The position numbers were made by a program, and so were the translations under genes. From assembly GCF_003253995.1 (NCBI RefSeq), contig NZ_QKZL01000029.1:1-37361 (forward strand): a stretch of DNA of 37,361 nt, in the 5' to 3' direction. Below, one piece after another: positions 7,667-29,660 of this stretch. This DNA comes from Palleronia aestuarii (GTDB taxonomy: Bacteria; Pseudomonadota; Alphaproteobacteria; Rhodobacterales; Rhodobacteraceae). Numbering within the stretch: position 1 is the first letter of the stretch; each line of letters begins with the position of its first letter. The notes under the pieces were generated by a model. That model saw only the letters and a list, made by a program, of their open reading frames with translations. It was not told the DNA's origin and made no database searches.

Positions 7667-9061
7667 TCACGGAAGCGCGGTCACCGGCAGGGCCGACCAT
7701 ACGAAAAGCAGCACGCTCGATCCGAGCGCGACGCCCACGAGAGCCAGCAGCATGACGGCCTTCGACGGTGCTCCCAGGGCCTCGACCCGTTCGTCCGATG
7801 TGCCGAAGGTGACAGGACCGATCACGCGGGCGTAATAGAAGAGCGACAACACGGAGTTCGCGACCGCGACGACGGCAAGCCACGCATACCCACCGTCCAT
7901 CGCAGCCAGGAACAGAACGAACTTCCCTCCGAACCCAACCAGTGGCGGAATCCCCACCAGGGACAGGAACGCGAGGATCAGGGTCCCCGCCGCGAGCGGC
8001 TGGCTGCGGATCAGCCCGGCAAAACCGGTAATCGCGGTGCGTCCCCGCAAGTGGACGATCGCGGCCAGGGCCGCAATGTTCGCCACGACATAGGCGCCGA
8101 TGAAGGCGATGAGCGCCGGCAGCGCCCGGTCCGAGAGGCCGATTACCGCGACGGCCATGAGCGCGTATCCGGCCTGACTGACCGAGGACCAGCCGATCAG
8201 GCGCCGCACGTCGTCCTGCCAGAGAGCGGCGAGATTGCCGAGGGTCATCGTCGCTGCCGCGAGGAGCGCTACCAGCAGGCGCAACGACGATCCTTCTGCC
8301 GGCACCAGGGCCACCAGGCGGATCAGCGCGAGCGCGGCGGCGATTTTGGGCACGGTCGTGAGGAACGCCGCCACCGGCGCCGGCGCGCCCTCGGCCACGT
8401 CTGGCACCCAGGTATGAGCCGGCACGGCGCCGAGCTTGAAGAGGAACCCCACGAGGACGAGCATCAGGCCGATGAGGGCCAGGGGCGCTGTCAGGTCCGC
8501 CGTGCGCAGGGCGGCGTAGTCCGTGGTCCCCGTCATGCCCATCACGAGGACGATGCCGATTACCAACAGGGCATTCGCAAGCGCGCCGACGAGAAAGTAT
8601 TTCATCCCGGCCTCGAGCGAGATCGCCCAGTCCCGATGCCAGGCGGCCAGAACGTATCCGGTGACTGACGAGAGGAGGATACCCATGGCGAGCTGCATGA
8701 GGTCGGCCGCGCCCGCCATCGCCATGGCGCCGAGCGCGGAGAAGAGGACCATCGCGTAGAACTCGCCGTGGCGCCGGTCGGTCGCGAACCAGCGAGGAAA
8801 GAGCCCGATGCAGAGTGCCGTCGCGCCGAGGATCAGGAGCCGCGCGACGCCCGTCGCGCCGTCGAGCGCAAAGGTTCCCGAGAAGGTCAGACGGTGGGCG
8901 CCGAGCTGCGCCGTGGCGAGCGTGGCGGCGATAGCAAGCACGAGGAGGGCCAGGCCGGCGCAAACCCCATGCCGCCGCTGTGGCAGGGCCATCGCGGCCA
9001 GCAGGACGAGAACGGCGCCGACGAGGACCGCGATCTCGGGGGCGAGGTCGCCGATGGGCAC
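7667..9061 (-). CDS. nuoN: NuoN-like complex I membrane subunit
   Basis: A 464-residue antiporter-like subunit of the NuoN type with about 14 membrane segments. Conserved parts include EAGMKYFLVGALANALLVIG (Lys154), FKLGAVPAHTWVPDVAEGAP (Lys209) and TTVPKIAAALALI. The glutamate expected in transmembrane helix 5 (the LGLELLSL region of canonical NuoN) is replaced: here the segment reads MGILLSSVTGYVL with Leu129 at that place. It is the last gene of the operon, one base after nuoM, and its stop is ten bases from the IS3 end. In true complex I, NuoN is one of three proton-pumping subunits. Here the change may uncouple or alter this channel (inference). Confidence 0.88.
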   Translation of the reverse strand: MPIGDLAPEIAVLVGAVLVLLAAMALPQRRHGVCAGLALLVLAIAATLATAQLGAHRLTFSGTFALDGATGVARLLILGATALCIGLFPRWFATDRRHGEFYAMVLFSALGAMAMAGAADLMQLAMGILLSSVTGYVLAAWHRDWAISLEAGMKYFLVGALANALLVIGIVLVMGMTGTTDYAALRTADLTAPLALIGLMLVLVGFLFKLGAVPAHTWVPDVAEGAPAPVAAFLTTVPKIAAALALIRLVALVPAEGSSLRLLVALLAAATMTLGNLAALWQDDVRRLIGWSSVSQAGYALMAVAVIGLSDRALPALIAFIGAYVVANIAALAAIVHLRGRTAITGFAGLIRSQPLAAGTLILAFLSLVGIPPLVGFGGKFVLFLAAMDGGYAWLAVVAVANSVLSLFYYARVIGPVTFGTSDERVEALGAPSKAVMLLALVGVALGSSVLLFVWSALPVTALP

Positions 9062-9062
9062 G

Positions 9063-10538
9063 CTAGCCTCCCGCGACGGCGACGGGTGCCGTGCCGATCA
9101 TCTCGAGCAGCCAGATCGGCCAGACGCCGATCAGGACGACGAGGCCGAGAAGGCCCGCGAGGATCCCGAGCTCGATCCGCGTGAGATCCGCGAAGCCCGT
9201 TCGCGCCGCGGGAAGTGCGCCGAAGAACACGCGGCCGAGAAGCTGCAGGAAGAGCGCGGCGGTGATCAGGATGCCGAGGAGCCCGATGGCCGCGAGCCAG
9301 GGATAGACCGCGAAGGCGCCGAGGAAGATGTGCAGCTCGGCCACGAACCCCGCCAGCCCCGGCAGCCCTAGCGAGGCGAAGGCCGCGAGAGTCGTGGCCC
9401 CGGTCAGGCGCGGCGCCACCCCGGCGAGCCCGCCATAGGCTGCCATGTCGTAATCCTGGTGCCGCTGCCAGATCGCGCCGGCGATCAGGAAGAGCGCGCC
9501 GGTGATGAGCCCGTGCGCGATCATCTCGACCACCGCGCCGGTCAGGGCGATGTCGCGCGCCGCCTGCGTCCCCATGGCCGACCCTGCGACCGCGATCCCC
9601 AGGACCGCGTAGCCCATGTGGTTGACCGAGGTATAGGCGATGCGCCGCTTCAGATCGTCCTGCCCCAGGGCCACGATCGCGCCCCAGAGGATCGAGATCA
9701 CCGCCACCACCCCAAGCGGCAGCGCCCAGTCAACGAAGGTCTGGGGCATCATCTGCAGTGCCAGCCGCACGAGGCCGTAGGTGCCCATCTTCAAAAGCAC
9801 GCCCGCCAGGATCGCCGAGACTGGCCCCGGCGCGTTCACATGCGCCGGCGGCAGCCAGGTATGGACCGGGAAGAGCGGCGTCTTGATGCCGAACCCGACG
9901 AACAAACCCAACAGGACCAATGCCGCGGGCAGGCCCGCCGCCGCCAAAGGTGCCGCCGCGATGATCGCGCGCATGTCGAAGGTGATCTCGGGCATCGAGA
10001 GGGCCAGCGCGATGATGCCGATCAGGATCAGGAGCGATCCTGCCAGGGTATAGACGAAGAACTTCAGGGCCGCGGCCTGAGCCTCGCCGTGCCCCCAACG
10101 GCCGATCAGAAAGTACATGCCGACGAGGGACAGGTCGAAGAAGACGTAGAAGAGGATCAGATCAAGCGTCACGAAGAGGCCCAGCGAGACCGCGTAGAGG
10201 AAGGCGAACCACGCATAGTAGGCCCGCGCCCGCGGCAGGTCCGCCATCGGCCAGGCGACGGCGGCGAGGAACACCACGCCCGTCAGCAGCGACAGCGACA
10301 GCGACATCCCGTCCACGCCGACCCGCCAGGCGATGCCGAGCGACGGGATCCACCGTGCCTCGGCGACCGACTGGAAGCCCGCCCCCGGCGCGAAGCCCGC
10401 CCAGACGACGAGCAGGAGCAGCAGCGGGACCGCGGTGACCGCGATCGCGATCGTCCGCGCCGTGGACTCCCGGATCGACGGTATCGCGGCCAGCGCCAGG
10501 GCGCCAAGCAGCGGAACGAGGATGCAAAGGGTGAGCAT
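9063..10538 (-). CDS. nuoM: NuoM-like complex I membrane subunit
   Basis: A 491-residue antiporter-like NuoM subunit with about 14 membrane helices. Typical parts: GVDGMSLSLSLLTG, LKFFVYTLAGSLLILIG (Lys159), GFGIKTPLFPVHTWLPPAH (Lys219) and LAGVLLKMGTYGLVR (Lys250). The essential helix-5 Glu of canonical NuoM (FFWEMMLVPMYFLI in E. coli) is Asp135 here, in VFFDLSLVGMYFLIG, and the following Pro is Gly. Acid character is kept, so proton movement is plausible. It directly follows nuoL with no gap and is followed by nuoN after one base, so the three antiporter-like subunits are co-translated. Confidence 0.92.
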   Translation of the reverse strand: MLTLCILVPLLGALALAAIPSIRESTARTIAIAVTAVPLLLLLVVWAGFAPGAGFQSVAEARWIPSLGIAWRVGVDGMSLSLSLLTGVVFLAAVAWPMADLPRARAYYAWFAFLYAVSLGLFVTLDLILFYVFFDLSLVGMYFLIGRWGHGEAQAAALKFFVYTLAGSLLILIGIIALALSMPEITFDMRAIIAAAPLAAAGLPAALVLLGLFVGFGIKTPLFPVHTWLPPAHVNAPGPVSAILAGVLLKMGTYGLVRLALQMMPQTFVDWALPLGVVAVISILWGAIVALGQDDLKRRIAYTSVNHMGYAVLGIAVAGSAMGTQAARDIALTGAVVEMIAHGLITGALFLIAGAIWQRHQDYDMAAYGGLAGVAPRLTGATTLAAFASLGLPGLAGFVAELHIFLGAFAVYPWLAAIGLLGILITAALFLQLLGRVFFGALPAARTGFADLTRIELGILAGLLGLVVLIGVWPIWLLEMIGTAPVAVAGG

Positions 10539-12374
10539 CTAGCGGGCTCCCAGGATCAGGACGACGCCGCCGAGCGCGACGCCGGCGACGAGAAAGACGT
10601 AGTAATGGTGCGAAAGGCCGGTCTGGGTCCGGCGCAGGTCGGCGCCGGCCATGCCGAGAAGGCGCCCGGTGCCGGTCGGGATCAGGTCCATGGCGGCCTC
10701 GCCCGCGCGCGCGGCCCCCGTCGCGGCGGCCCGCGCGGCAACGACGAACGCGGCGAGAAGGCCGCGGCCGCGCGAACCGGACCCCAGTCCATCGATCACG
10801 TAATCGTCGAGACGTGCCGACAGACGCGCCGCCGCCAGGAACGGCGCGATCACCCCGTTATCGATCAGATCCGCGAGGCCGAGCCAGTCCCGGCGTTCCC
10901 CCGCGCGCGGATGTCGTGCCAGATAGATCCCGACGAGGACGCCGAGTGCGAGGGCGCAGAGCGTTCCGATTCTCTCGATCCACGGCCCCGGAGAGGGGAG
11001 CGCGATTTCGAAGAGACGCGCCACTCCGTCATGAGGTCCTGGGAGCCAGATACCCGACAGGATCACGGTCACGAAGGAGAGGGTGCCGAGCGCCGCCAAG
11101 GCGCGCCAGTTCGACCGCGACGTCTCATCGGCCTCGCCCGGCCAGAAGGCGAGGAGCGCGAAGCGCGTGGCATAGGCTGCCGATAGCCCCCCGGCGGCGA
11201 TGGCCGCGGCCGCGAGCCATGGCGAGGCGTGGCCGAGCGCGGTCACGATCTCCTCCTTGGTCCAGGCCCCGCCGAGCGGCGGCGCACCGGCGAGCGCCAG
11301 CGCTGGCGGGACCGCCAATGCACCGGTTACCGGCAGCGCCAGGCCGAGCCGCATCCGTCGCAGATCGAAGGTGCCCGCGCGCTCGTGCGCGAGGCCCGCG
11401 GCGAAGAAGAGCGGCGCCTTGAACGCGGCATGTGCGATCATGTGCAGGATCGCGAGCCCGGGCCAGCCCGCCCCCACGGCGGCGAACATCAGCCCGAGCT
11501 GCGCCGAGGTCGATCCCGCCAGCACCTTCTTGGCATGGTCCTGTCGCAGCGCCACGATCCCGCCGGCGAGGGAAGTGGCGAGACCCAGGGCCATCGCCGC
11601 ACCACCGAAACCCGGCACGTGGGCGAAGGATGGCTGCAGCCGCGCGACGAGAAACGCGCCGGCCGCGACCATGGTCGAGGAATGCAGGAACGCGGACACC
11701 GATGTCGGGCCGTCCATGGCGCGAAAGAGCCAGGGCGCGAATGGCCCCTGCCCGGCCTTCGCCGCCGCCGCGACGAGAACGCCGAAGGCGGCGAGCGCCA
11801 GGTATGGCCCGTCGAGACCGGTGAGGGCGGCATAGTCTACCGATCCCGCCCCGGCGAAACAGGCGAAGAGAGCCACGAAGAGACCGAGGTCGCCCGCGCG
11901 GGTCGCAACGAAGGCGTAGGTGGCCGACGGCGTTGCCTGCGCCTCCCGCCAGCGATGGCCGATCAGGGCCCAGGAGATTGCGCCCATGAGTTCCCAGCCG
12001 ACCAGGAGGCTGACGAGGTCGTTCGCGATCACCACGAGTTCCATCGCGCCGGTGAAGATCAGGAGAAGCCCGAGGAGCCGTGCCAAGCCGCGTTCCGCCT
12101 CGTGCACCCCGGCAAAGAGGATCACGCAGAGCCCGACGAGGGGCACCAGAACCGCGACAGCAGCCGTCATCGCAGACAGGCCGAACCGCAGGGTCAGCGC
12201 GGGCGACCAGGCCATGCTGGACGTGTCGCCCGTTGCCGCGACCACCAGCGACAGGAGCAGGGTGACGCCCATGGCCGCGAGGCCCAGGGCCGTCAGGCGC
12301 CGCCGCGATCCCCTGCTCAACATCCAGAGCGCCAGGCCCGCCGCGACCGGCCAGAGGGCGAGGCTCCAGATCAT
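10539..12374 (-). CDS. nuoL: NuoL-like complex I membrane subunit
   Basis: A 611-residue NuoL, about the same length as the E. coli protein. It keeps VGWELMGAISWALIG with the helix-5 Glu (Glu128), AAAAKAGQGPFAPWLFRAMDG with Lys206, and PTSVSAFLHSSTMVAAGAFL with the family His. After the antiporter core there is a long C-terminal stretch rich in Ala/Arg and a last hydrophobic segment (YYVFLVAGVALGGVVLI), as expected for the lateral helix and its anchor. The ATG at 12374 overlaps the nuoK stop. The NuoL with its lateral arm argues that a full piston-like membrane arm, not a free antiporter, is assembled. Confidence 0.92.
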   Translation of the reverse strand: MIWSLALWPVAAGLALWMLSRGSRRRLTALGLAAMGVTLLLSLVVAATGDTSSMAWSPALTLRFGLSAMTAAVAVLVPLVGLCVILFAGVHEAERGLARLLGLLLIFTGAMELVVIANDLVSLLVGWELMGAISWALIGHRWREAQATPSATYAFVATRAGDLGLFVALFACFAGAGSVDYAALTGLDGPYLALAAFGVLVAAAAKAGQGPFAPWLFRAMDGPTSVSAFLHSSTMVAAGAFLVARLQPSFAHVPGFGGAAMALGLATSLAGGIVALRQDHAKKVLAGSTSAQLGLMFAAVGAGWPGLAILHMIAHAAFKAPLFFAAGLAHERAGTFDLRRMRLGLALPVTGALAVPPALALAGAPPLGGAWTKEEIVTALGHASPWLAAAAIAAGGLSAAYATRFALLAFWPGEADETSRSNWRALAALGTLSFVTVILSGIWLPGPHDGVARLFEIALPSPGPWIERIGTLCALALGVLVGIYLARHPRAGERRDWLGLADLIDNGVIAPFLAAARLSARLDDYVIDGLGSGSRGRGLLAAFVVAARAAATGAARAGEAAMDLIPTGTGRLLGMAGADLRRTQTGLSHHYYVFLVAGVALGGVVLILGAR

Positions 12375-12676
12375 CCCTTCAGCGTCCCGAGACTCTCGGT
12401 CACGTCGGCCTGTCGCTTGCGGTAGACCGCGACGACGAGGGCGAAACCGATGGCCATCTCCACCGCCATGACCGCCATGACGATGATCGCCAGAAGTTGC
12501 GCCTCGGGCGGGCCGCCGATGCCCTGCGACCAGAAGCCCATGATTGCCAGAAGGGCGCCGTTCAGCATCAGTTCCAGCCCCATCATCAGCATCACGAAGC
12601 TCTGCTGCGACAGCGCGCCGTAAAGGCCGATGCCGATCAGGGCGGACGCTCCGAGGAGCACGATGGTAAGCGTCAT
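12371..12676 (-). CDS. nuoK: NuoK-like complex I membrane subunit
   Basis: A 101-residue, three-helix NuoK of standard length. Both key membrane glutamates are kept: MMGLELMLNGALLAIMGF in helix 2 and MAVMAVEMAIGFALVVAVY in helix 3. These link the quinone-side half channel to the antiporter subunits in canonical complex I. It overlaps nuoJ upstream and nuoL downstream by four bases each (ATGA), showing tight translational coupling. This is one of the least altered subunits of the cluster. Confidence 0.93.
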   Translation of the reverse strand: MTLTIVLLGASALIGIGLYGALSQQSFVMLMMGLELMLNGALLAIMGFWSQGIGGPPEAQLLAIIVMAVMAVEMAIGFALVVAVYRKRQADVTESLGTLKG

Positions 12677-13374
12677 GATGGATCCCCCTTCGCCGCATGG
12701 CCATGATGATGGCCGCCGTGGTCATGGCCCTGCCCGTGGTCGGACGCGCCGTCCACGTCGCCGCCGTGGTCGCCATGACCCCCGTGGTGCATGTGATGCC
12801 CGCCGCTCTCGTCGGGCACCCGGCCGGCCGGTTCTCCGTTCTCCGTCAGGCCCGGCGGTCGCGAGCCTTCATCCGCGGACCCGAAACGCCCCTGCTGTGA
12901 CGAGAGCACGACCGCGCCGACCATCGTCGCCAGAAGCGTGACGCCCGCCGTCTCGAAGATCAGCATCGACGGCCCGAGGAGCTCCAGCCCGAGGTCGAAG
13001 ACCACGCGGGTCTCCGGTGGCACCGGTCTGTCCGGCAGGTCCGCCGTCAGGACGGCGGCGGAAAGGCCCAGGAAGGCCAGCGCACCGGCCGCCATCGACA
13101 AGCGGTTCTGGTGCACCATCGACATCGGGTTGAGGCCGGCGGGGTTCATCATGAAGGCGACCATGAAGATCGCCATCACCATCATCTCGACCGCCATCAT
13201 GAAGACCGTCGCGACACCGATATAGGAGGCCGACATCAGCACGCCCGCCCCGCCCACGGCGACGAACGACGCGAGCAGCGAGAAGGAGGCCCGCACCATG
13301 CTGTCGACCACGAAGACCCGCCAGCCGGACCAGACCGCAAAGAGGACGAGGGCGAGGATCATCAGGTCGGTCAC
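12673..13374 (-). CDS. nuoJ: NuoJ-like subunit, Met-rich with a His-rich tail
   Basis: A 233-residue NuoJ-like subunit with five membrane helices in residues 1-160. In canonical NuoJ, helix 3 carries a VYAGA motif with a pi-bulge that couples the quinone site to pumping; here the region reads TVFMMAVEMMVMAIFMVAFM, with a Glu and many Met instead. Residues 193-226 form a hydrophilic tail with 13 His (including HHMHHGGHGDHGG and HDHGGHHHGH), a likely metal-binding extension. The GTG at 13374 is chosen because it overlaps the nuoH stop (GTGA); the ATG at 13362 is the alternative. The protein lies in a copper-gene neighbourhood, so the tail may bind copper or a similar metal (inference). Confidence 0.85.
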   Translation of the reverse strand: MTDLMILALVLFAVWSGWRVFVVDSMVRASFSLLASFVAVGGAGVLMSASYIGVATVFMMAVEMMVMAIFMVAFMMNPAGLNPMSMVHQNRLSMAAGALAFLGLSAAVLTADLPDRPVPPETRVVFDLGLELLGPSMLIFETAGVTLLATMVGAVVLSSQQGRFGSADEGSRPPGLTENGEPAGRVPDESGGHHMHHGGHGDHGGDVDGASDHGQGHDHGGHHHGHAAKGDPS

Positions 13375-14255
13375 AGCGCCAGCACCCCCGCGATCCCCAG
13401 ATGCAGAAACGACAGCGGGAGGACGATCGTCCAGATCAGTCCCAGCATCCGCGACGGCGTCGTCCGTGTGACGGACGTGCCGGCAAGAACGATCAGCGCC
13501 ATCACCGCCGCGGTCTTGAACCAGAGCCAGACAGGCCCCGGCAGGACCGGGCCGAGCGGTCCGCCGAGAAACACCGCCGCGGCCACGGCCGAGACGGAGA
13601 CCAGCATGGCCAGCCGCGCAATCTCCCATGCGAGGCGCGCGCCGCCGCCCTCCTCGGCAGAGGTGCCGCCCGCCATGTCCGCGGCGTCGGCGTAGTCCAT
13701 CGGGCCACGGAGCGTCAGTGTCAGCCCCACCATGACGAAAAGCGGCAGGCCGAGCGGCTGGCGCACCACGTTCCAGATGTCCCGCTGGGACTCGACGATG
13801 GCCGACAACGACAGCGATTCCGCCGGCAGCGCCGCCGCGATCAGCACGAACATCGAGGGCAGCATCACCGGCAGGGCGATGGCGACGTAGCGATAGGCGC
13901 CGATCAGCGGGAAAGGCGCGTTCGGCGACCATCCGTGCAGGAAGACCGCGATAATCGTCAGCGCCTCGCAGCTCCCCCAGATCACGATGCCCACCGGGCT
14001 CTCGACCAGCGCCGCGCCGGGTGCGAAGGGCACGACCGAGAGCCCGACGGCGGCGAGCGCGAGATAAAGGATCGGCGCGAGCCGTTGGAGCAGATCGTCG
14101 GGCGCCTCGGTCCGCACGCTCCCACGCACGGCGAGGGCGGCTGCGGCGCGCAGCGGGCCGGCACCCCGCCCCGCGACCACCCGGTCGAGCCAGCCTCCGA
14201 CGAGAACGCCGCCGAGAAGCGTGACGACCAGGGCAAGCGCGAGAAGCAGGATCAT
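13371..14255 (-). CDS. nuoH: NuoH-like complex I membrane subunit, divergent
   Basis: A 294-residue NuoH-like protein with about eight hydrophobic helices. The overall order of the family is visible (HGWSPNAPFPLIGAYRYVA, then ESQRDIWNVVRQPLGLP, then VFLGGPLGPVLPGPVWLWFK and the end IVLPLSFLHLG). Two parts that form the quinone chamber in real NuoH are missing or degraded: the GPNRVG-type loop after helix 1 is absent, and the RAPFDLPEAESELVAG loop is reduced to RGPMDYADAADMAGG. The ATG at 14255 overlaps the upstream stop by four bases. It probably holds the arm together as the proximal subunit but may no longer bind quinone in the usual way. Confidence 0.85.
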   Translation of the reverse strand: MILLLALALVVTLLGGVLVGGWLDRVVAGRGAGPLRAAAALAVRGSVRTEAPDDLLQRLAPILYLALAAVGLSVVPFAPGAALVESPVGIVIWGSCEALTIIAVFLHGWSPNAPFPLIGAYRYVAIALPVMLPSMFVLIAAALPAESLSLSAIVESQRDIWNVVRQPLGLPLFVMVGLTLTLRGPMDYADAADMAGGTSAEEGGGARLAWEIARLAMLVSVSAVAAAVFLGGPLGPVLPGPVWLWFKTAAVMALIVLAGTSVTRTTPSRMLGLIWTIVLPLSFLHLGIAGVLAL

Positions 14256-15151
14256 GCATCCTCCTTCGAGATCGCGACATGGGCGAGCGTCGCCGGGCTG
14301 AAGGAGTTGATCACAAGCATCGCCTCCGACCATTCGAGACCCGGCAGGAGAGTTGCGAGAGCCGGCGCGGCCTCCGGACCCCGCTCTCCGGCGAGCCAGC
14401 CGGCGAGCCGCCCGCGCGCGTCCTGGCCATCATGGCGGCCGAGCCCCTCCGGGATTGCGCGCAGCGCCGTGATGGCCCGCAGCCGTGCCCCGCGCGCGAC
14501 GCGGTCCGCATCGCGCGGGAGGCCCACGAGCCGCAGCATCCGCGCTGCGCAGAAGTCGGGCGCAGACGCGTCATCGGGCTGGGCGAACGGCGCCGCGCGG
14601 ACCTCGGCCGAGACGATCACGTCGCCCTGCAGCGTCACCTCGAGTACGAGCCCCGGTGGCAGCATCGGCACGAAGGGTCCGAGCCGTGCGGTGTAGGCGT
14701 CGAGCGCGAGGCCGTCGCGCGGATCGTCGGCGGTCATCGCCATGGGTCGTCCATAGGGCGTGCCGCCCATCATGCCCTTGCCGCCCTGCCCGTGGGGGCC
14801 GACGCCGCACCAGTCGTTTGGAGGCGCGTCGGGGCGGCGATCGGTCTCGGTATCGCCCCCCGCCGCCAGATCGCGCCAGAGATCGCGAAGCGCCGGCTCC
14901 GGGTCCCCGGTTCCGTCCCAGCGAAAGGTCTGGCGCGGATGCGGCACCTGGTCGTGGACCCGGTCGAGCGCCTCCTGCGCATGGTCGGGGATCTCGCCTG
15001 CGACGAGCAGGATCGCCGCCGCCCGCGGCGTTGCGACCCGGTCAAGCGCAGGCGACAGGCAAAGCCGCTCGACGGCAGCCTGAATGCCCGGCCCGATGCA
15101 TGTGAAGACGGGCGCGGGCGCCGCCGCGGCGAGGCGCGCAAGCCAGTTCAC
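14252..15151 (-). CDS. NuoB-like/NuoD-like fusion, Fe-S ligands lost
   Basis: A 299-residue soluble protein between nuoA and nuoH, where nuoB, C and D normally lie. Residues 15-75 resemble NuoB: VFTCIGPGI sits where NuoB has LACCAIE, and VATPRAAAILLVAGEIP, then RVHDQVPHPRQ, match RASPRQSDLMIVAGTLT and KVYDQMPEPRY. Only one of the four cysteines that hold cluster N2 is left in place (Cys18); the later two positions are gone. After a Gly/Met-rich linker (GGKGMMGGTPYGRPMAM, about 123-139) residues 150-200 resemble the start of NuoD, with LGPFVPMLPPGLVLE and LQGDVIVSAEV. The GTG at 15151 overlaps the nuoA stop. I infer a scaffold that replaces the quinone-reducing arm without redox chemistry. The assignment rests on remote similarity. 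Confidence 0.65.
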   Translation of the reverse strand: MNWLARLAAAAPAPVFTCIGPGIQAAVERLCLSPALDRVATPRAAAILLVAGEIPDHAQEALDRVHDQVPHPRQTFRWDGTGDPEPALRDLWRDLAAGGDTETDRRPDAPPNDWCGVGPHGQGGKGMMGGTPYGRPMAMTADDPRDGLALDAYTARLGPFVPMLPPGLVLEVTLQGDVIVSAEVRAAPFAQPDDASAPDFCAARMLRLVGLPRDADRVARGARLRAITALRAIPEGLGRHDGQDARGRLAGWLAGERGPEAAPALATLLPGLEWSEAMLVINSFSPATLAHVAISKEDA

Positions 15152-15519
15152 TGCCACCGGAACACCCCCTCGCGCCAGCCGTAGAGGATGCCGACCGACA
15201 GGATCCCGAGGAACATGCCCATCTCGGCCAAGGCCTTCACGCCCTCTTCCACGAAGACGACGGCCCACGGGTACATGAACATCATCTCCATCTCGAAGGC
15301 GATGAAGACCAGCGTCATCGTGTAGGCCCGGAAATGGAAGCGCTGCCAGGCATGGGTGTCGGGGGTACCGCCGCCGAGGAACGGCGCCGCCATGGGGGCG
15401 CTTGTGCCGGCATCATGGCGTGGCGCCATCAGCAGGAAAGACAGGCCGAGAGCCAGGACGATCGACGCGGCGGATACGAGAACGAGCGTCATAAATATTT
15501 CTCGAACACGTGTCGGCAC
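15148..15519 (-). CDS. nuoA: NuoA-like complex I membrane subunit
   Basis: A three-helix NuoA of 123 residues. The family core is plain: YTMTLVFIAFEMEMMFMYPW corresponds to the FDVEVVFLYPW region, with the first acid changed from Asp to Glu and the second Glu kept, followed by VGILYGWREGVFRWQ. The coded start is a GTG at 15519; the ATG at 15492 gives a 114-residue protein and cannot be excluded, since neither has a strong ribosome site. It is the first clear nuo gene of the operon, preceded by a 128-base gap and the 41-residue peptide gene on the same strand. In complex I it clamps the NuoH/NuoJ junction. Confidence 0.88.
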   Translation of the reverse strand: MPTRVREIFMTLVLVSAASIVLALGLSFLLMAPRHDAGTSAPMAAPFLGGGTPDTHAWQRFHFRAYTMTLVFIAFEMEMMFMYPWAVVFVEEGVKALAEMGMFLGILSVGILYGWREGVFRWQ

Positions 15520-15842: not shown

Positions 15843-15847
15843 GGAAA

Positions 15848-16492
15848 TCAGCGCAAGACCAGATCCGAGACGCTTGCGTCGATCTCGCCATCGGTATCAT
15901 CGCTGTCGGCGGAGACGGCGACACCGAGCAGCTCCGCATCCCGCATATCGAAGATCGCCGCGAGATCGCTGGCCAGGTCGACGCGTTCCGCATGGCGTCC
16001 CGTTCCCGCGCCACGAAGAACGATGGTGGTGCCGCGGCCCTCGAGATACGGGTTCGGAAGGATCGCGCCCCGTCCGGCGGACCCGCCCCAGACATAGGTC
16101 AGGACCCGGACGCCCGAGGTCGAGAGAAGTCGCCGGAGCGGCTGGCCACGCAAGCCCGCGGCGGTTCCGGGGTCGGCGAACACGAAGTAGATCGCGATGT
16201 TGCGGTCGTCACCCCCCTTCCGGGTCAGATCGGTCGCCGCGACGCCGCGGCTCACGCTCCACGACCAGGAGGCCCCCTGCACGTCCCCGCTCGTCTGCGG
16301 CAGACGCCTGTAGAGGATCGAGACGGTTCCGTCTGACCGGATCCCGAGAGCGTTGCCCTCTTGCGCGTAATCGTTCGACGACAGGCGCAGGAATCCCTGC
16401 TCTTCCCAGCTTCCGTCGAAGGGAACGCTCTGCTGGGCGGCTGCCATGCTCGCGGCCAGCATCAGGGCGATCGCCGGTGCCGCCACTCTCAT
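15848..16492 (-). CDS. exported DUF3047 domain protein
   Basis: A 214-residue protein with a signal peptide (MRVAAPAIALMLAASMAAA) and the DUF3047 pattern: ASWSWSVSRGVAATDLTRKGGDDRNIAIYF followed by FVF, and a C-terminal beta-rich region. It should act in the periplasm; the family's function is unknown. The ATG at 16492 overlaps the cueR stop (ATGA), so it is translated with the regulator and belongs to the copA-cueR transcript. Its presence at the end of a copper operon is the only clue to its role. Confidence 0.8.
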   Translation of the reverse strand: MRVAAPAIALMLAASMAAAQQSVPFDGSWEEQGFLRLSSNDYAQEGNALGIRSDGTVSILYRRLPQTSGDVQGASWSWSVSRGVAATDLTRKGGDDRNIAIYFVFADPGTAAGLRGQPLRRLLSTSGVRVLTYVWGGSAGRGAILPNPYLEGRGTTIVLRGAGTGRHAERVDLASDLAAIFDMRDAELLGVAVSADSDDTDGEIDASVSDLVLR

Positions 16493-16911
16493 CGGACGTC
16501 GTCCGTGACTGGCTCCGGCCGGGCCTCCTCGGCCGCGAGATCGAGCAGGATCGGGCAATCGGGGCGATCATCGCCGGCACAGGCCGCGACCAGGCGCGTG
16601 AGGGAGGCATGCATGGTCGTCAGTTCGGCGATCTTCTCCTCGATCGTCGTCAGGTGCTCTTCCGCGATCCGTTTCACATCGGCGCTTTCCCGATCCGACT
16701 TTTCCCAGAGCTGCAGGAGGGAACGGCAATCCTCGATCGTGAAGCCGAGCGCCCGGGCGCGTCCCAGGAAGGCCAGCTTCTGCACCTCGCTCTCGCGGAA
16801 GGCGCGGTACCCGTTGGCATCGCGCAGCGGTTTGATCAGACCGATATCCTCGTAATAGCGGATCGTCTTGGCGGGCAGGCCCGACCGGCCCGCGGCTTCA
16901 CCGATATTCAT
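16489..16911 (-). CDS. cueR: CueR-type MerR-family copper-responsive regulator
   Basis: A 140-residue MerR-family activator. It has an N-terminal winged helix (MNIGEAAGRSGLPAKTIRYY, then LIKPLRDANGYR), a dimer helix and the metal loop CAGDDRPDCP with Cys111 and Cys119, equal in spacing to Cys112/Cys120 of E. coli CueR. ESADVKRIAEEH keeps the Ser that marks sensors of monovalent ions (Cu+, Ag+, Au+). It lies 12 bases after copA on the same strand and is probably co-transcribed with it. The matching dyads before copA, copZ, the cytochrome, dsbA-like and DUF411 genes are its likely targets, each with the long 19-20 base spacer that MerR proteins correct by bending DNA. Confidence 0.9.
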   Translation of the reverse strand: MNIGEAAGRSGLPAKTIRYYEDIGLIKPLRDANGYRAFRESEVQKLAFLGRARALGFTIEDCRSLLQLWEKSDRESADVKRIAEEHLTTIEEKIAELTTMHASLTRLVAACAGDDRPDCPILLDLAAEEARPEPVTDDVR

Positions 16912-16923: not shown

Positions 16924-19425
<2,502 letters not shown>

Positions 19426-19523: not shown

Positions 19524-19555
19524 TTGACCTTCCCGCGCTGGAAGTCCCCATCTGG
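19524..19555 (+). promoter_or_regulatory. CueR-type promoter of copZ
   Basis: TTGACC at 19524-19529 runs into the dyad ACCTTCCCGCGCTGGAAGT. The -10 expected near 19549-19555 is weak (CATCTGG), as is common for activator-dependent promoters. It is divergent from the copA promoter 38 bases away. Confidence 0.8.
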
Positions 19556-19800: not shown

Positions 19801-20262
19801 CTACGGCATCGCGCTTCGCTCGGCCTGGACATTGCGGATCCGGTCCGGCCAGGTGGACTTGATGTAGGCGAGGATGTTCCAGATGTCCTGATCCGACAGG
19901 GTCTCGCCGAAGGCTGGCATTCCGCTCTCGAACCCCTCGACGCCGCTCTCGGCGAGCGCCGCCCGCCCGCCGAGCTTGGTATAGTCGAAGAGCATCGCAT
20001 CGCCGTGATGCCAGGTATGGCCGGTCTCGTCATGGGGCGGCGCCGGAAGCCGCCCGTCCGGGCCGGGCGTTCGCCAGTTCGGCTGTCCGCCGAGGTCGGC
20101 GCCGTGACAGGATGCGCAGTTCTCCGCGTAGAGCCGCTTCCCGGCCGCGATGTCGACGGCTTCGGGCTGACGGATGGCCTCGCCGCCGGCGCTGGAGCCC
20201 ATCCAGAGACCGAGACTTGTCAGAGCGATTACCCCGATCGCCCCCAATCCGATCCGTATCAT
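19801..20262 (-). CDS. exported class I c-type cytochrome
   Basis: A 153-residue protein with an N-terminal hydrophobic anchor or signal (IGLGAIGVIALTSLGLWMG) and one c-type haem site, CASCH, at about residues 49-53. The sixth ligand is probably the Met of GFESGMPAFGETLSD, and DQDIWNILAYIKSTWP is the usual C-terminal helix. It is a periplasmic electron carrier, as often found next to copper oxidases. The ATG at 20262 places the signal sequence at the N-terminus; the longer open frame upstream has no signal. A CueR-type dyad lies about 175 bases upstream. It converges with copZ (20-base gap). Which enzyme it serves is not visible; the multicopper oxidase at 25821 is one option. Confidence 0.85.
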   Translation of the reverse strand: MIRIGLGAIGVIALTSLGLWMGSSAGGEAIRQPEAVDIAAGKRLYAENCASCHGADLGGQPNWRTPGPDGRLPAPPHDETGHTWHHGDAMLFDYTKLGGRAALAESGVEGFESGMPAFGETLSDQDIWNILAYIKSTWPDRIRNVQAERSAMP

Positions 20263-20435
20263 CGGTGCATGCCCCGCGCCGGGGTGCTTCGAAGATCGAC
20301 AATACCCGGCCGCCGACCGGGGGACCGATGCCGAAGGACGTCCATCGTCGCGCATCGGGCCGGATCGTCGATAGGGCGTGCCAAGCGTCTGTGCATCCGT
20401 GTCTCTTGTTAAATCCAAAATTTTCACCTCCCGAA

Positions 20436-20460
20436 CGGCATTCCCGGGCTGGAAGGTCAA
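20436..20460 (-). promoter_or_regulatory. CueR-type dyad upstream of the cytochrome c gene
   Basis: On the minus strand TTGACC (20455-20460) leads into CCTTCCAGCCCGGGAA. The -10 is poor, and the leader to the cytochrome start is about 170 bases with no clear gene in it. Confidence 0.65.
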
Positions 20461-20560
20461 AGGCCGCGTGGTCACGAGAGCGTCATGCGTGGCCTGCGGT
20501 GATCGGGCCGCGCATGACCGTGATGTGATCACTCTTGCCTTTCGATACGGGCAAGACGTC

Positions 20561-20591
20561 TTGACCTTCCCCCGGAGGAAGGTCGCAGCCC
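20561..20591 (+). promoter_or_regulatory. CueR-type promoter of the dsbA-scsB pair
   Basis: TTGACC at 20561-20566 followed by a nearly perfect dyad, GACCTTCC and GGAAGGTC around CCCGGA. It lies 25-55 bases before the dsbA-like start. The -10 is weak. Confidence 0.75.
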
Positions 20592-20615
20592 GATGCTTCA
20601 GACCGAGGACCACGC

Positions 20616-21413
20616 ATGATGGCGGGATCACGTTTCTCCAGACGGACGTTCTGGGTCGGCCTCGCGGCCGGCGCCGGAGCGCTCTACCTCGCCCGCGATC
20701 CGTTGGGCGATCTCTTCGGGAGCGATCTCGAGTTCGAGCCTTATCCCGGGCTGCCGGGTTTCCGGCGAATGGCCGGGGGAAGCCAGTCCACCGCCGGTTC
20801 GCCGGGTGGAAGTTTCAGCCTCTTCGTCGGGCTCGAGGCCCCCGGAGAGGCGGACCCGGAGTTCGAGGGGGTGCTCGCCTCCGTCCGGTCGAATGTCTGC
20901 GCCGCGCTCTATCCGGAGCAGGGCCCATCCGACATGGTGCCGGTCGCCTCGTTCTCGGACTACAATTGTCCCTATTGCCGGGTTCAGACCGAAAAGCTTG
21001 CGGAGATCGCCAAGAATGGTGGGATCGCGGTGGCCTGGCACGAACTGCCCCTGCTCGGCGATGCCTCCGTCACCGCGGCCCGGGGGGCGCTCGCGGCCAA
21101 GCGGCAAGACGCCTATCTCGCTTTCCACAGGCGTCTCATGCGGGCGCCCTTCCAGACCGATCGAACCTATCTTGGCCTCCTGGCACGCGAGATCGGCGTC
21201 GACGAGGCCGAGTTCATCGCGGACATGGACAGCGCGGCGGTCGCCGACGAGATCCGGCGCAGCCGGGCCTTGAGCCGGATCTTCGGCTTCGTCGGAACGC
21301 CGGCGCTCGTCGTCGGACGGACCGTCGTGCAGGGCGAGATCGGTAGCGCGACCATGCGCAGATTGATCGAACGCGAACGCGCGGACGGGACGATCCCGGG
21401 ATGTCTTTCGTGA
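20616..21413 (+). CDS. DsbA/ScsC-type thiol oxidoreductase
   Basis: A 265-residue DsbA-family protein. The N-terminus has a twin-arginine-like start (FSRRTFWVGLAAG) before a hydrophobic stretch, so it is exported, possibly by Tat, or anchored. The thioredoxin fold carries the active site FSDYNCPYCRVQ (Cys118/Cys121) and the cis-proline loop GFVGTPALVVG. It likely forms or isomerises disulfides of periplasmic proteins under copper stress, as ScsC does. It overlaps the scsB-like gene, its probable reductant, and has a CueR-type dyad just upstream. A GGACC-rich leader gives no clear ribosome site; the next Met (codon 2) is equivalent. Confidence 0.88.
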   Translation: MMAGSRFSRRTFWVGLAAGAGALYLARDPLGDLFGSDLEFEPYPGLPGFRRMAGGSQSTAGSPGGSFSLFVGLEAPGEADPEFEGVLASVRSNVCAALYPEQGPSDMVPVASFSDYNCPYCRVQTEKLAEIAKNGGIAVAWHELPLLGDASVTAARGALAAKRQDAYLAFHRRLMRAPFQTDRTYLGLLAREIGVDEAEFIADMDSAAVADEIRRSRALSRIFGFVGTPALVVGRTVVQGEIGSATMRRLIERERADGTIPGCLS

Positions 21414-23503
21414 GCGTGCGACACGGCTTCAGGCTGTACGTCGCGGCACTGATTGCCGTGATCCTCTCAGGCGCACCTCTCGCCGCCTCCGTGTCCGACC
21501 GCGTTGGCGGCGAGGCGGTGAACGCCGTCCTCGTGACGGCGGAGGACGGTGTCGCGCCCGATGCGACGACGCTCTCGGCCGGTCTCGACGTGACCCTCGG
21601 GGATGGCTGGAAGACCTATTGGCGCTCACCCGGAGAGGTGGGTCTTCCTCCCGCGATCTCCTGGGACGGATCGACGAACGTCGCCTCCGTCGATGTCCTC
21701 TGGCCGGCCCCGACGCGATTCCGCGCCTTCGGGATCGAGAATTTCGGATATGCCGAGCGCGTCACGTTCCCCCTGCAGATCACGCTGGAAACGCCCGGCG
21801 CGCCGGCCGCCTTGCGCGCCTCGGTCGATCTCCTGATCTGCTCCGATCTCTGCGTTCCGCAAACGCTGGACCTCGCTCTCGATATGCCCGAAGGCGCGGG
21901 CATCGACGGGGAGGCGGCCGATCTCATCGCGGCCGCCGTAGCGCGGGTGCCCGATGCCGAGGCCGCAGGCCTCACGCCGGGGAGCGCGCATCTCGACTCG
22001 GAGGAGGCCACGCTGACCGTGACCGCCCGCAGCGAACGTGCCTTCCGAAACCCCGACGCCTTCCCCGAACTGGACGGCGCGGCTTTTGGGGCGCCGGACA
22101 TCCGGCTGGGAGAGAGCGGCCGGCTTCTCTGGGCGCGGTTCCCGGTTCTCTCTGCGGCCAGCGGGACGACCGATCTGAGGGTGACGATCACCGACGGAGA
22201 CCGCGCGGGAACGGTGCGACCACCGCGGATCGACGAGGCCATTCCTCCTCCGTTCGCCCTCGACCGGGTCGTGCTGGGATCGAACGACCTGTTCCGCATC
22301 GCGCTGATCGCGTTCCTGGGCGGGCTGATCCTCAACGTCATGCCCTGCGTCCTGCCGGTCCTGTCCATCAAGATCGCCACCGCCCTGAAGATACACGACG
22401 GCGCGCCCCGGCGGGCGAGGATCGGGTTCCTGGTCTCCGCGCTCGGCGTGATGGCCTTCATGGCGGTCCTCGCCGCGGGAACCATCCTGGCCAGGGCGGC
22501 GGGCCTGTCGGTGGGGTGGGGTCTGCAGTTCCAGAACCCGGTCTTCCTCGCCGCGATGATCGGTCTTTTGACGCTTTTCTCGGCCAATCTCCTCGGCCTG
22601 TTCGAGATCACGCTTCCCGCTTCCTGGATGACGGCCCTCGCCCGCCGGGAGACGCGGCCCGGCTACGGGGGCGATTTCGCGACCGGCGCCTTCACGGCCA
22701 TCCTCGCCACCCCCTGCTCCGCGCCTTTCCTGGGCACGGCCATCGCCTTCGCCCTGGCCGGACGCGGGATCGACATCGTCATGGTCTTCGCCGCCCTTGG
22801 GCTGGGCCTTGCTCTGCCCTATCTGGGTCTTGCCATGCGACCGTCGCTTCTCCGCGCGCTTCCGAAGCCCGGGCCGTGGACGATGGTCGTAAAGGTCGCC
22901 CTGGGGCTTTCGCTCTTGTTCACCGTCGCCTGGCTGATCTGGGTTCTCTCCGGCGTTGCCGGTCATCCCACCGCCGGTCTCGTCACCGCCTTCGCGGCGA
23001 TGACGGTTCTGTGCCTCTGGCAATCGCACCGTCTGACCCGTTCGGTCGCGATCGCGGGATTGGGAATTGCCGGTGCCGGTATGCTGACGGTGCCCGCCCT
23101 GACGATCTCGGAGCCGGTACCCGCCGCCAGGACCGAAACCCTCTGGCGAGATTTCGACCGTTCCCGGATCCCGAGGCTCGTTTCCGAAGGTCAGGTCGTC
23201 TTCGTCGACGTGACGGCCGATTGGTGCCTGACCTGCAAGGCGAACAAGGCGCTTGTCCTCGATCGAGGTGAGGTGGCGGAGGCGCTGACCGCGCCCGATG
23301 TCGTGCCCATGCAGGCGGACTGGACACGGTCCAATCCCGCCATCTCGCGTTATCTGGCCGCCCACGGCCGATTCGGCATCCCGTTCAACGTCGTCTACGG
23401 ACCCGGGGCGGCGGAGGGTCTGCTCTTGCCGGAAATCCTCACCACCGAAACGGTACTCGAGGCCCTCTCGACGGCGGCAAGCCGGGTACAGGTCGATCGG
23501 TGA
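21401..23503 (+). CDS. scsB: ScsB/DsbD-like transmembrane thiol reductase
   Basis: A 700-residue protein of the DsbD/ScsB type that moves electrons from cytoplasmic thioredoxin to the periplasm. In order: signal peptide (1-30); periplasmic alpha-like domain with Cys147/Cys151 in LICSDLCVPQ; membrane beta domain with MPCVLPVLS (Cys316) and ATPCSAPFLG (Cys439) on about eight helices; C-terminal thioredoxin domain with DWCLTCK (Cys609/Cys612). All three cysteine pairs are present, so it should be functional. The long N-terminal domain is ScsB-like rather than E. coli DsbD-like. The ATG overlaps the dsbA-like gene by 13 bases; a GTG at 21410 would give a GTGA overlap. Confidence 0.92.
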   Translation: MSFVSVRHGFRLYVAALIAVILSGAPLAASVSDRVGGEAVNAVLVTAEDGVAPDATTLSAGLDVTLGDGWKTYWRSPGEVGLPPAISWDGSTNVASVDVLWPAPTRFRAFGIENFGYAERVTFPLQITLETPGAPAALRASVDLLICSDLCVPQTLDLALDMPEGAGIDGEAADLIAAAVARVPDAEAAGLTPGSAHLDSEEATLTVTARSERAFRNPDAFPELDGAAFGAPDIRLGESGRLLWARFPVLSAASGTTDLRVTITDGDRAGTVRPPRIDEAIPPPFALDRVVLGSNDLFRIALIAFLGGLILNVMPCVLPVLSIKIATALKIHDGAPRRARIGFLVSALGVMAFMAVLAAGTILARAAGLSVGWGLQFQNPVFLAAMIGLLTLFSANLLGLFEITLPASWMTALARRETRPGYGGDFATGAFTAILATPCSAPFLGTAIAFALAGRGIDIVMVFAALGLGLALPYLGLAMRPSLLRALPKPGPWTMVVKVALGLSLLFTVAWLIWVLSGVAGHPTAGLVTAFAAMTVLCLWQSHRLTRSVAIAGLGIAGAGMLTVPALTISEPVPAARTETLWRDFDRSRIPRLVSEGQVVFVDVTADWCLTCKANKALVLDRGEVAEALTAPDVVPMQADWTRSNPAISRYLAAHGRFGIPFNVVYGPGAAEGLLLPEILTTETVLEALSTAASRVQVDR

Positions 23504-23513
23504 CGGCGTTTCG

Positions 23514-23951
23514 TCACTCCGGGGGCGTGTCTTCGGATCGCAAGATCCGCGTATGAATCGTATAGATGAAGGACGCGGAGCAACTGATCAGCAGAAAGCC
23601 GTTCAGCGCCTCGACGCCGGAGATGAAGCGCAGGTGACCGTCGGGATAGATCGCCCCCAACCCGAGAGACGTGTAGTTGACCAAGGAGAAGTAGAAATAC
23701 TCCATGGCCGACATCGCCGCCTCCTTCTGGAAGCTTCCCAGACCCAGCGTTTCTCCGGAGGCAAAGGCAATGGCGTAGAGACCGGCCTCGGACACATGCG
23801 CGGCGCCGGCGGCGTAGAGAGCCAGCACCAGCTTTGCCGGGTGTGGCAAGGCAGAGGCGGTTAGCCAACGCATGGCAAAGGCCATCACGGCAAAGTGCAA
23901 CAGCCCGACGAGACCGAAGGTCAGAACAGTGATGAGTACGGCCGTCAGCAT
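23514..23951 (-). CDS. small ion-channel-like membrane protein
   Basis: A 145-residue membrane protein with four hydrophobic segments. The third region, YFYFSLVNYTSLGLGAIYPDG, resembles the pore helix and filter of two-helix potassium channels, with TSLGLG in place of TVGYG, and is followed by a final helix. This pattern is seen in bacterial proteins annotated as ion channel or two-pore-domain potassium channel family. Ion selectivity cannot be read from the sequence. It is convergent with scsB, and a perfect 13-base hairpin lies just upstream of its start. A role in copper stress is suggested only by location. Confidence 0.75.
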   Translation of the reverse strand: MLTAVLITVLTFGLVGLLHFAVMAFAMRWLTASALPHPAKLVLALYAAGAAHVSEAGLYAIAFASGETLGLGSFQKEAAMSAMEYFYFSLVNYTSLGLGAIYPDGHLRFISGVEALNGFLLISCSASFIYTIHTRILRSEDTPPE

Positions 23952-23971
23952 GGTTCTCGCTGAAATGTCCG

Positions 23972-24001
23972 CAAGGTGAAGCGGTGTCCCGCTTCACCTT
24001 G
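23972..24001 (-). terminator. perfect 13-base-pair hairpin
   Basis: CAAGGTGAAGCGG and its exact complement flank a 4-base loop. It starts 18 bases after the stop of the three-repeat protein gene and 21 bases before the channel-like gene start, both on the minus strand. No T-run follows, so it may terminate weakly or shape the mRNA. Confidence 0.7.
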
Positions 24002-24018
24002 TCCACATTATCGAAGGC

Positions 24019-24594
24019 TCAGCCCAGTTCGGGGTTCTTCAGAATCTGCCTGATGCGCAATCCGCTCTTCGGCTCATCGTCTTCGATGTACGCCTTCAGC
24101 CTGACCAGCTGCGCTATCGAGTAGAGCCCCGGCTCGACCCCGACGCTTCGGGCCAGCTGAGCGGCACCTGAAGATACCTGCGACCGGTTCGAACGATCAT
24201 CAGACGATTTTGACGCCAGGATGAAGTCGACGCGCGTTCGATCATTCTGCTCCAGGGCAGATTTGAGCGCGACCAAGTCCTGCGGCGACAGCCGGCCGGG
24301 TTCGACACCCGCGGAAAGGGCAAGATTTTGCCAGCCCGCCAGATTCGGATCGGGTGCGGTACGATGGTGGGTGACCAGATCGCCACCTGCGCCCTCAGGG
24401 TGATCGAGAATCTCCCGGATCTGAAACTGTTCCCCGTCCTGGGAACGAAGACTCTGCAATCGAACAAGTTGTGGAAGCGAATAAGCGCCGGGTTCGACGC
24501 CAAGGCTGGAGGCCAACTGCTCGCTTCCATGCGAGGCGTGAGCACCTGTCCCGAAGGTCAGGGTGACGAGGGTAGCTGCGATGAGACGTTTCAT
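24019..24594 (-). CDS. exported protein with three GVEPG repeats
   Basis: A 191-residue exported protein of unknown function with a signal peptide ending GTGAHA. The mature part is built of three repeats of about 45-60 residues, each starting with QLA or NLA, then S-x-GVEPG, then a helix L-x-Q/D-LV-x-LK and ending near an IL pair. Repeats begin near residues 25 (LASSLGVEPGAYSLPQLVRL), 92 (LALSAGVEPGRLSPQDLVAL) and 145 (LARSVGVEPGLYSIAQLVRL). No Cys is present and His are few, so it is not an obvious metal binder. It lies between cusF and the channel-like gene, separated by hairpins on both sides, so it is likely its own transcript. Confidence 0.75.
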   Translation of the reverse strand: MKRLIAATLVTLTFGTGAHASHGSEQLASSLGVEPGAYSLPQLVRLQSLRSQDGEQFQIREILDHPEGAGGDLVTHHRTAPDPNLAGWQNLALSAGVEPGRLSPQDLVALKSALEQNDRTRVDFILASKSSDDRSNRSQVSSGAAQLARSVGVEPGLYSIAQLVRLKAYIEDDEPKSGLRIRQILKNPELG

Positions 24595-24617
24595 ATATTT
24601 GGTCCTTGCGGAGTTGA

Positions 24618-24637
24618 GGGAGGGCGACTGCCCTCCC
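24618..24637. terminator. 8-base-pair hairpin GGGAGGGC
   Basis: GGGAGGGC and GCCCTCCC pair around GACT, between the cusF-side hairpins and the three-repeat protein start. It could end transcription from the copper oxidase operon or lie in the leader of the repeat protein. Confidence 0.4.
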
Positions 24638-24706
24638 GTTTGTTGCGTCTTACGGAATGCGCCTGACTTGCCTGGTAAGGCATTCCGGATGACAATGGCT
24701 TCGTGT

Positions 24707-24736
24707 ACGGAAGGTCGGTGCCAGCCGGCCTTCCGT
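24707..24736 (-). terminator. hairpin after cusF
   Basis: ACGGAAGG and CCTTCCGT, extended by partial pairing inside, form a stem 11 bases after the cusF stop codon. A second stem (24654-24661 with 24679-24686) follows. Together they probably mark the end of the multicopper oxidase operon; no T-run is seen. Confidence 0.5.
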
Positions 24737-24746
24737 ATTCCTGGCT

Positions 24747-25031
24747 TTATTTTAGGTCGACGACGGTGAGCTTGCCTTCGACCCGGTCGGCGACGAACTC
24801 GATGTCCTTGCCTTCGCTCAGGTCGTCCATCATGGCCTCGTCGGCGACGCTGAACACCATGGTCATGGCTGGCATGCCAAGATCGACGAGTTCTTCGTGG
24901 ATGATGGTGACCTTGCCGGCCTCTGCATCGACCTCCTTGACGGTGCCCTTGGTGAACGTGGCGGCGGAGGCCATCGTGAGGCCAAGGCCAAGGGCTATGG
25001 TAGTGGTGGACGCGAGTTTCAGAAGTTTCAT
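24747..25031 (-). CDS. cusF: CusF-like periplasmic copper-binding protein
   Basis: A 94-residue exported protein: signal peptide (MKLLKLASTTTIALGLGLTMASA), then the small beta-barrel of the CusF family. The copper-binding part is IIHEELVDLGMPAMTMVFSV with one His and the MxM pair, as in CusF (His36, Met47, Met49). The Trp that caps Cu+ in E. coli CusF is not present. It likely carries Cu+ in the periplasm for oxidation or efflux. It is the last gene of the operon, 25 bases after the cupredoxin gene, with hairpins following. Confidence 0.87.
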   Translation of the reverse strand: MKLLKLASTTTIALGLGLTMASAATFTKGTVKEVDAEAGKVTIIHEELVDLGMPAMTMVFSVADEAMMDDLSEGKDIEFVADRVEGKLTVVDLK

Positions 25032-25056
25032 TACGGTTTCCTCTTTCTAGTCAGGT

Positions 25057-27179: not shown

Positions 27180-27190
27180 CGCTTCTCTCC

Positions 27191-28881: not shown

Positions 28882-28971
28882 TTGGAAAACCTGAGAAGTC
28901 TGGATCATGCCTCAGGCGGTGGAGACGATATGCAATCGTCCCCGCCACACAAGGCGCACTGTCAGATCAAC

Positions 28972-29625: not shown

Positions 29626-29660
29626 CTCGTCGAAACGATGTGATGAAGGAGCGAGACGCC

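Follow-up and report, generated by a model that had tools for sequence, protein, structure and literature searches.

The 37,361-nucleotide stretch of Palleronia aestuarii DNA analyzed here (the window), which begins at base 1 of contig NZ_QKZL01000029.1 (C29), carries on its minus strand, from 15492 to 7667, eight overlapping or abutting genes in the order nuoA, BD, nuoH, nuoJ, nuoK, nuoL, nuoM, and nuoN, where BD, the second gene, is a NuoB-NuoD fusion (Table 1). Adjacent genes share 4 bases or abut, with a 1-base gap between nuoM and nuoN, and an alternative BD start is possible at GTG 15157. Pfam assigns A, H, J, K, L, M, and N (E 4e-13 to 9e-65). A first-pass annotation, made from the sequence alone, had described this run as a complex I membrane arm with a NuoB/NuoD-like fusion and had found NuoC, E, F, G, and I to be absent. 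The gene content is confirmed by coordinates, Pfam, relatives, and fold, and none of the 30 window proteins has a Pfam match to NuoC, E, F, G, or I, the search for nuoC, nuoE, nuoG, and nuoI being confined to the window; no nuoF was found on the contig. Transposase genes bound the operon on one side and cueR/copA on the other, so the idea that the missing complex I genes lie just beyond it was rejected, and none of the five was found elsewhere in the operon, where their presence would have told against the first-pass annotation.

Table 1. Coordinates of the operon, its features, and its copper neighborhood in the window
Feature	Position	Strand	Details
nuoA	15148..15492	-	start ATG 15492; Pfam Oxidored_q4 E 1e-21
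BD (NuoB-NuoD fusion, no redox center)	14252..15151	-	start GTG 15151, overlapping nuoA stop
BD Met/His linker, residues 113-149	14708..14818	-	predicted disordered
nuoH, quinone-pocket acids lost	13371..14255	-	start ATG 14255; Pfam NADHdh E 1e-37
nuoJ, His-rich C-terminal tail	12673..13374	-	start GTG 13374; Pfam Oxidored_q3 E 4e-13
NuoJ helix 3, residues 58-75, methionine stripe and Glu62	13147..13200	-	family alignment
NuoJ His-rich tail	12676..12804	-	13 His beyond residue 150
nuoK, both E-channel acids kept, Met added	12371..12676	-	start ATG 12676; Pfam
nuoL, seven proton-path residues kept	10539..12374	-	start ATG 12374; Pfam
nuoM	9063..10538	-	start ATG 10538; NDH_I_M model above its cutoff
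nuoN, helix-5 Glu lost	7667..9061	-	start GTG 9061; Pfam
DUF3047 gene, between cueR and nuoA	15848..16519	-	Pfam
cueR-like MerR regulator	16489..16911	-	Pfam; 69% to annotated cueR
copA-like P-type ATPase, two HMA domains	16924..19425	-	Pfam and similarity
CueR-type box, 2 mismatches, before copA	19527..19546	.	pattern scan
Copper island: cytochrome c, DsbA, DsbD, CusF, cupredoxin, multicopper oxidase, TolC, DUF411	19801..30110	.	Pfam

The window BD itself has no Pfam match and only weak matches to NuoB (NCBIfam E 0.002), and it was recognized as a fusion from longer relatives, from a profile search against the PDB, and from the predicted fold. The Pfam family Complex1_49kDa (NuoD) is recognized in two divergent BD relatives (E 3e-16 and 8e-15), in two Halomonas-type members and one Marinobacter member (E 3e-7 to 5e-6), and more weakly, below the cutoff, in two further relatives; NuoB matches in these proteins are weak, under curated cutoffs. 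A profile of 17 BD sequences retrieved NuoB/PSST chains from the PDB at E 1e-9. The AlphaFold model of the window BD has a mean pLDDT of 81.8 (71.5 for the predicted model of the Marinobacter BD), with residues 113 to 149 forming a floppy linker, and Foldseek ranks NuoB/PSST chains highest among its matches (probability 1.00, at E values of at least 0.007 and none at or below 0.001), accompanied by weak matches to the 49-kDa subunit. The linker zone is where HMBD domains or His runs are located in other clades.

The gene order, which the first-pass annotation had marked for comparison with homologues, recurs as A-BD-H-J-K-L-M-N in 42 loci from two phyla as far as the contigs extend (the window is counted, and L028 and L008 come from one species), and the operon is therefore not a chance arrangement. 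A scan of genome contigs yielded ten relatives, every one in this order, and the further loci came from plasmid and whole-genome searches; the end of a contig cuts L125, L126, and L127. Many family loci sit on plasmids. Hosts include Roseivivax, Sulfitobacter, Paracoccus, Aurantimonas, Jiella, Fulvimarina, Stakelama, Acuticoccus, Nitratireductor, Marinobacter, and Halomonas and, with the operon on plasmids, the actinobacteria Rubrobacter, Pseudonocardia, Arthrobacter, Rhodococcus, and Gordonia. At least 15 of 295 genomes of the window's bacterial family, the window's own genome counted, have a BD match at E <1e-20, and the weaker matches among those listed mostly cover profile positions 37 to 79 and resemble ordinary NuoB. 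NuoJ relatives are also among the matches listed from Mycobacterium plasmids. In a NuoH tree of 30 family and 31 canonical proteins the family forms a separate branch with full support, divided into clade 1 (19 proteins, including that of the window) and clade 2 (11 proteins); clade 3, the actinobacterial loci L149 to L151 and L153, lies outside this tree and was assigned by BD type. Judged by its parts, the operon is, on sequence evidence, a new branch of the complex I/Mrp superfamily. Its genes are at present named NADH-quinone oxidoreductase subunit, hypothetical protein, or heavy metal-binding domain-containing protein, and a literature search, outside which most subscription papers fell, returned nothing recognizable as this operon.

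Decaying complex I carried as a passenger on plasmids would explain the damaged copies, namely, L025, with many frame breaks, and the NuoM genes of L011 (shortened, 15177-15981) and L030 (split over two frames, 15314-16761); one TGA also falls within the BD match of G466, and sequencing error is the other candidate cause of such damage. We regard this explanation as extremely improbable, as frames are open in nearly all family copies, the branch is separate and well supported, the operon occurs without ordinary nuoB, and residues are identical across two phyla; a decayed remnant was rejected on this residue conservation.

The operon seems to stand alone. In the window genome an ordinary complex I is encoded on a separate contig (C4), and canonical nuoB is present in 17 of the 20 host genomes tested; in the remaining three (G193, G395, and G314, all recorded as 100% complete) it was not found, and BD is the sole nuoB-like match. 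The same three genomes also have no nuoF above the 559-bit cutoff, a weaker pointer in the same direction: they contain nuoF-like matches of 387 to 434 bits, and the cutoff misses nuoF in four of eight control genomes. A peripheral arm borrowed from a resident complex I was rejected, and this rejection rests on nuoB because the nuoF cutoff misses true nuoF among the controls.

The first-pass annotation had described the redox and quinone parts as degraded, and the family alignments agree. First, no cysteine is conserved among 17 BD sequences (the best column is common to 4), and six BD proteins, 5 of the 17 (Aurantimonas, Jiella, two Fulvimarina, and Acuticoccus) and that of Pseudonocardia, lack cysteine altogether; cluster N2 therefore cannot form. 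Second, the quinone-loop histidines of NuoD, compared with what we take to be the canonical motif, are absent from all 17 BD sequences. Third, NuoH acids 180 and 214, invariant in 31 canonical proteins, are lost in 37/37 family members, one of them now being Arg or Lys, and further columns invariant in canonical NuoH also vary. A still redox-driven machine, in which Cu(I) oxidation or some other donor would supply electrons to quinone and so power proton pumping, would suit the multicopper oxidase, cytochrome c, DsbD, or cupredoxin genes of several islands. It is nevertheless quite improbable given the missing N2 cysteines and quinone-loop histidines and the changed NuoH pocket, and no NuoI-like electron carrier was seen.

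The proton machinery, by comparison of its residues, appears largely kept. In what we take to be the E. coli numbering of the key residues, NuoL Glu144, Asp178, Lys229, His254, His338, Lys342, and Lys399 are retained in 29/29 sequences, as is NuoM Lys234; NuoM Lys265 and Glu407 are retained in 28, the exception being the shortened L011. NuoM Glu144 is Asp in all 19 clade-1 proteins and Glu in all 10 of clade 2, and Lys217, Lys247, and Lys395 of NuoN are kept. Both E-channel acids of NuoK are conserved (one as Asp in 4 sequences), as are the two of NuoA. The earlier residue calls (signature residues kept in NuoK and NuoL, Glu to Asp in NuoM, and the helix-5 Glu lost from NuoN) all hold.

The family has a methionine stripe on NuoJ helix 3. 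Met58, Met59, Met63, Met66, Met70, Met74, and Met75, together with Glu62, are identical in 37/37 family members (residue numbering omits the start codon), and neither the stripe nor Glu62 occurs in any of 31 canonical NuoJ proteins, which come from one phylum and whose alignment past position 74 is less certain. The canonical residues are V/I at 58, Y at 59, A at 62, V at 63, L at 66, V/A at 70, L at 74, and V/I at 75. At 100 degrees per residue, positions 59, 63, 66, 70, and 74 span at most 80 degrees and so lie on one helix face, and the loop that follows adds Met83, Met85, and His87. According to excerpts of published work on complex I, the pi-gate makes up half of this helix, rotates by almost 180 degrees, and has as its key residue a tyrosine at the Met59 position (PMC10212512), and it is the cytoplasmic half that moves (PMC8357420); the E-channel is described in the former excerpts as built from A, J, K, and part of H (PMC10212512). 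NuoK has Met29 and Met70 in 37/37 members and Met74 in 36/37, while NuoA has Met70, Met73, and His53 in 35/35 and Met68 in 33/35, and these fixed methionines stand beside the retained acids. Mean methionine numbers in shared columns (clade 1/clade 2/canonical) are 15.8/18.6/8.1 in NuoJ, 9.1/8.4/2.9 in NuoK, and 8.6/4.1/3.5 in NuoA; enrichment thus affects J and K in both clades and A chiefly in clade 1. The few family-invariant methionines of NuoL (3/3) and most of those of NuoM (4/5) are also Met in the canonical subunit of the window genome.

The clades carry different additions to BD and NuoJ. Between the NuoB and NuoD halves, clade 2 has one to five HMBD domains (of the CPMHPEV...CPKCGM type) in 11/11 loci tested, standing among His runs, and the same motif is present in L152 and L154 to L156. 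In clade 3, His runs occupy the linker site, with 43, 32, and 32 His per protein in L149, L151, and L153, respectively. The clade-1 linker, of the GQGGxGMMGGxPYGRxMAM type, is nearly fully invariant in 16 sequences, and in this clade the NuoJ tail has 4 to 32 His beyond residue 150 (21/21 proteins, compared with 0 to 4 His in clade-2 tails). In the excerpted sources, the NuoJ helix 3-4 loop is located at the quinone site (PMC10036122; PMC10212512) and NuoJ has five helices (PMC10212512), which together would place the tail on the cytoplasmic side. Copper handling calls for metal-binding segments, and these are present as HMBD domains, His runs, and tails that are predicted to bind a metal.

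The genomic setting points to the metal. The window operon lies downstream of copA and cueR on the same strand. Copper gene homologues were found near 13 of 29 loci, versus 1 of 20 controls (Fisher p 0.003), comprising 9 of 18 clade-1 and 4 of 11 clade-2 stretches, and annotated copper or heavy-metal genes accompany 8 of the 12 plasmid loci examined (L022 to L024, L149, L150, L152, L155, and L156); L151, L153, and L154 have no such annotated genes, and those of L025 are nearly all hypothetical. In Rubrobacter, genes for a heavy-metal P-type ATPase, a metal-sensitive regulator, and a copper-binding protein are directly 5' of nuoA on the same strand. CueR-type boxes, sought with a motif that we presume to be the consensus and with a 6-base spacer, which fitted better than a 7-base one, occur upstream of nuoA in 2 of 20 loci (L003, shortly before the gene, and L023, in the gap). 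Cu-type ATPases above the model cutoff are found beside the clade-2 loci L119, L121, and L124, and that of L123 is Zn/Cd type. Copper is very probably the relevant metal. Inward movement of copper, or movement of another metal such as silver or zinc, might be read from the generic nature of HMBD and from the Zn/Cd-type ATPase adjoining L123, but neighbors with a clear metal are mostly copper genes, and we judge it improbable, if less so than the redox machine.

Several other genes recur in these neighborhoods. A copper nitrite reductase gene above the cutoff lies near the clade-2 operon of L122 (3348-4517), and the start of a gene in L125 (5912-7093) resembles it. Homologues of egtB and egtD (ergothioneine type) directly adjoin the operon in L005, L024, L029, L030, and L031, and a thiol copper ligand may be part of the system. 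A DUF6692 gene recurs beside the operon in L023, L117, L118, L006, and L007, in three loci between cueR and nuoA, and a DUF3047 gene is also found downstream of the Nitratireductor operon (L156, 21560-22126). Genes resembling potassium channels stand beside or near the operon in L023 (12744-13148), L119 (5019-5528), and the window (about 23556) and represent a possible counter-ion path. Transposase genes flank the window island at 5156-7603 and 31289-32704 (Pfam HTH_38/rve type and DDE type), those at 6561-7603 being assigned by eye to an IS3-like pair, and a ParB-like gene occupies 812-2611; the window is probably a plasmid or mobile island.

The first-pass annotation had proposed an ion machine derived from complex I and no longer driven by NADH, leaving drive and ion open. 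The derivation is supported by the sequence tests, which strongly implicate copper and make proton motive force the likely drive. Because the proton path is largely intact, redox chemistry is lacking, and metal-binding arms and a methionine ladder have been added, we favor, at about even probability, a complex-I-shaped membrane machine driven by proton motive force with Cu(I) as its most likely cargo. The BD linker, the HMBD domains or His runs, and the NuoJ tail would gather Cu(I) on the cytoplasmic side, at the place where complex I binds quinone. Cu(I) would enter along the NuoJ methionine stripe and pass to the acids of NuoA, NuoJ, and NuoK, now amid fixed methionines, and inward proton flow through NuoL, NuoM, and NuoN would pay for its expulsion. 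The site of this Cu(I)/H+ antiport would be the place in the fold that Mrp uses for Na+. Whether copper would be moved by antiport we consider evenly balanced; export would most likely be the direction. Movement of copper, as opposed to sensing alone, is what we infer from these features, and so are the direction, stoichiometry, and exit route. Copper handling is not a known job of the complex I family. We postulate, with a little less assurance than for the machine itself, that a stripped complex I has been rebuilt as a proton-driven Cu(I) exporter, which would be a new class of heavy-metal pump, in which copper would be loaded at the quinone cavity and the rotating pi-gate helix would serve as a moving methionine ladder that passes Cu(I) to the E-channel.

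Several observations weigh against a proton-driven Cu(I) exporter. The helix-5 Glu of NuoN is lost in 29/29 sequences, so that the proton path is partly altered, NuoH is without methionine enrichment (mean 8.1/7.9/11.8 in clade 1, clade 2, and canonical proteins), and no route by which copper would leave to the periplasm could be traced. BD has few His in the window (6) and L150 (5), and the HMBD model describes heavy-metal binding without copper specificity. No copper gene was found in the fetched stretch of 16 of the 29 loci, the pattern scan detected no CueR box before the window nuoA, and CopA is already a copper exporter. The main rival is a copper-gated proton, Na+, or K+ valve, in which copper binding to BD and NuoJ would switch a cation flux and copper itself would not be moved, guarding membrane potential or pH during copper stress. 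The retained proton path agrees with such a valve, as do the potassium channel gene directly 5' of nuoA in L023 and the similar gene beside nuoN in L119, but a methionine stripe within a membrane helix exceeds the needs of a cytoplasmic sensor. We consider the valve unlikely, though the least so of the alternatives, and prefer transport of Cu(I).

The means by which complex I couples quinone chemistry to distant proton pumps has been argued over for a long time, with the E-channel and the NuoJ pi-gate at the center. The present family has kept the membrane arm, shed the redox chemistry, and acquired what seem to be metal sites, both in the gate and next to the former quinone cavity. If copper does replace quinone as trigger or cargo, coupling could be probed through an ion, which can be supplied, withdrawn, and counted, and the moving part of complex I that has been disputed most would be caught at work on an ion, not on a quinone. 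The family would also represent a new kind of copper defense on plasmids of two phyla.

The operon shares with respiratory complex I (NDH-1) homologous NuoA, H, J, K, L, M, and N in the usual order, the proton path of L, M, and N, and, in BD, remnants of NuoB and NuoD. Unlike complex I, it has no visible NADH module, N2 ligands, or quinone residues, and metal-binding segments and a methionine stripe have been added; with none of the three found in the operon, it is, as judged from its sequence, not complex I. The CusCBA/CopA copper exporters share the copper setting, and HMBD resembles a stretch of CusB (NCBIfam E 2e-6, L026), but fold and energy coupling are unrelated. The first-pass annotation had also set the gene set apart from membrane-bound hydrogenases and Mrp, and both distinctions stand. 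In contrast to membrane-bound [NiFe] hydrogenase/FHL, the operon lacks NiFe-binding cysteines, its BD having no conserved Cys. Mrp antiporters likewise have antiporter-like subunits and are free of redox chemistry. According to the excerpted source, they lack the NuoH-like subunit, their cations are expected to pass through the part that resembles NuoJ and NuoK, and the Na+ exit path coincides with the E-channel region and with the portion of MrpA that is NuoJ-like (PMC7419157). By subunit content the operon is not Mrp, since it has NuoH, NuoA, and BD together with three antiporter-like subunits. In the DAB inorganic-carbon pumps (DabA/DabB), as excerpts of PMC13144422 describe them, a NuoL-like subunit also powers another task without electron transfer. 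A plain Mrp or DAB was rejected because the subunits do not match: DAB consists of DabA and one NuoL-like subunit, whereas the operon, in which no DabA was noted, keeps the whole membrane arm.

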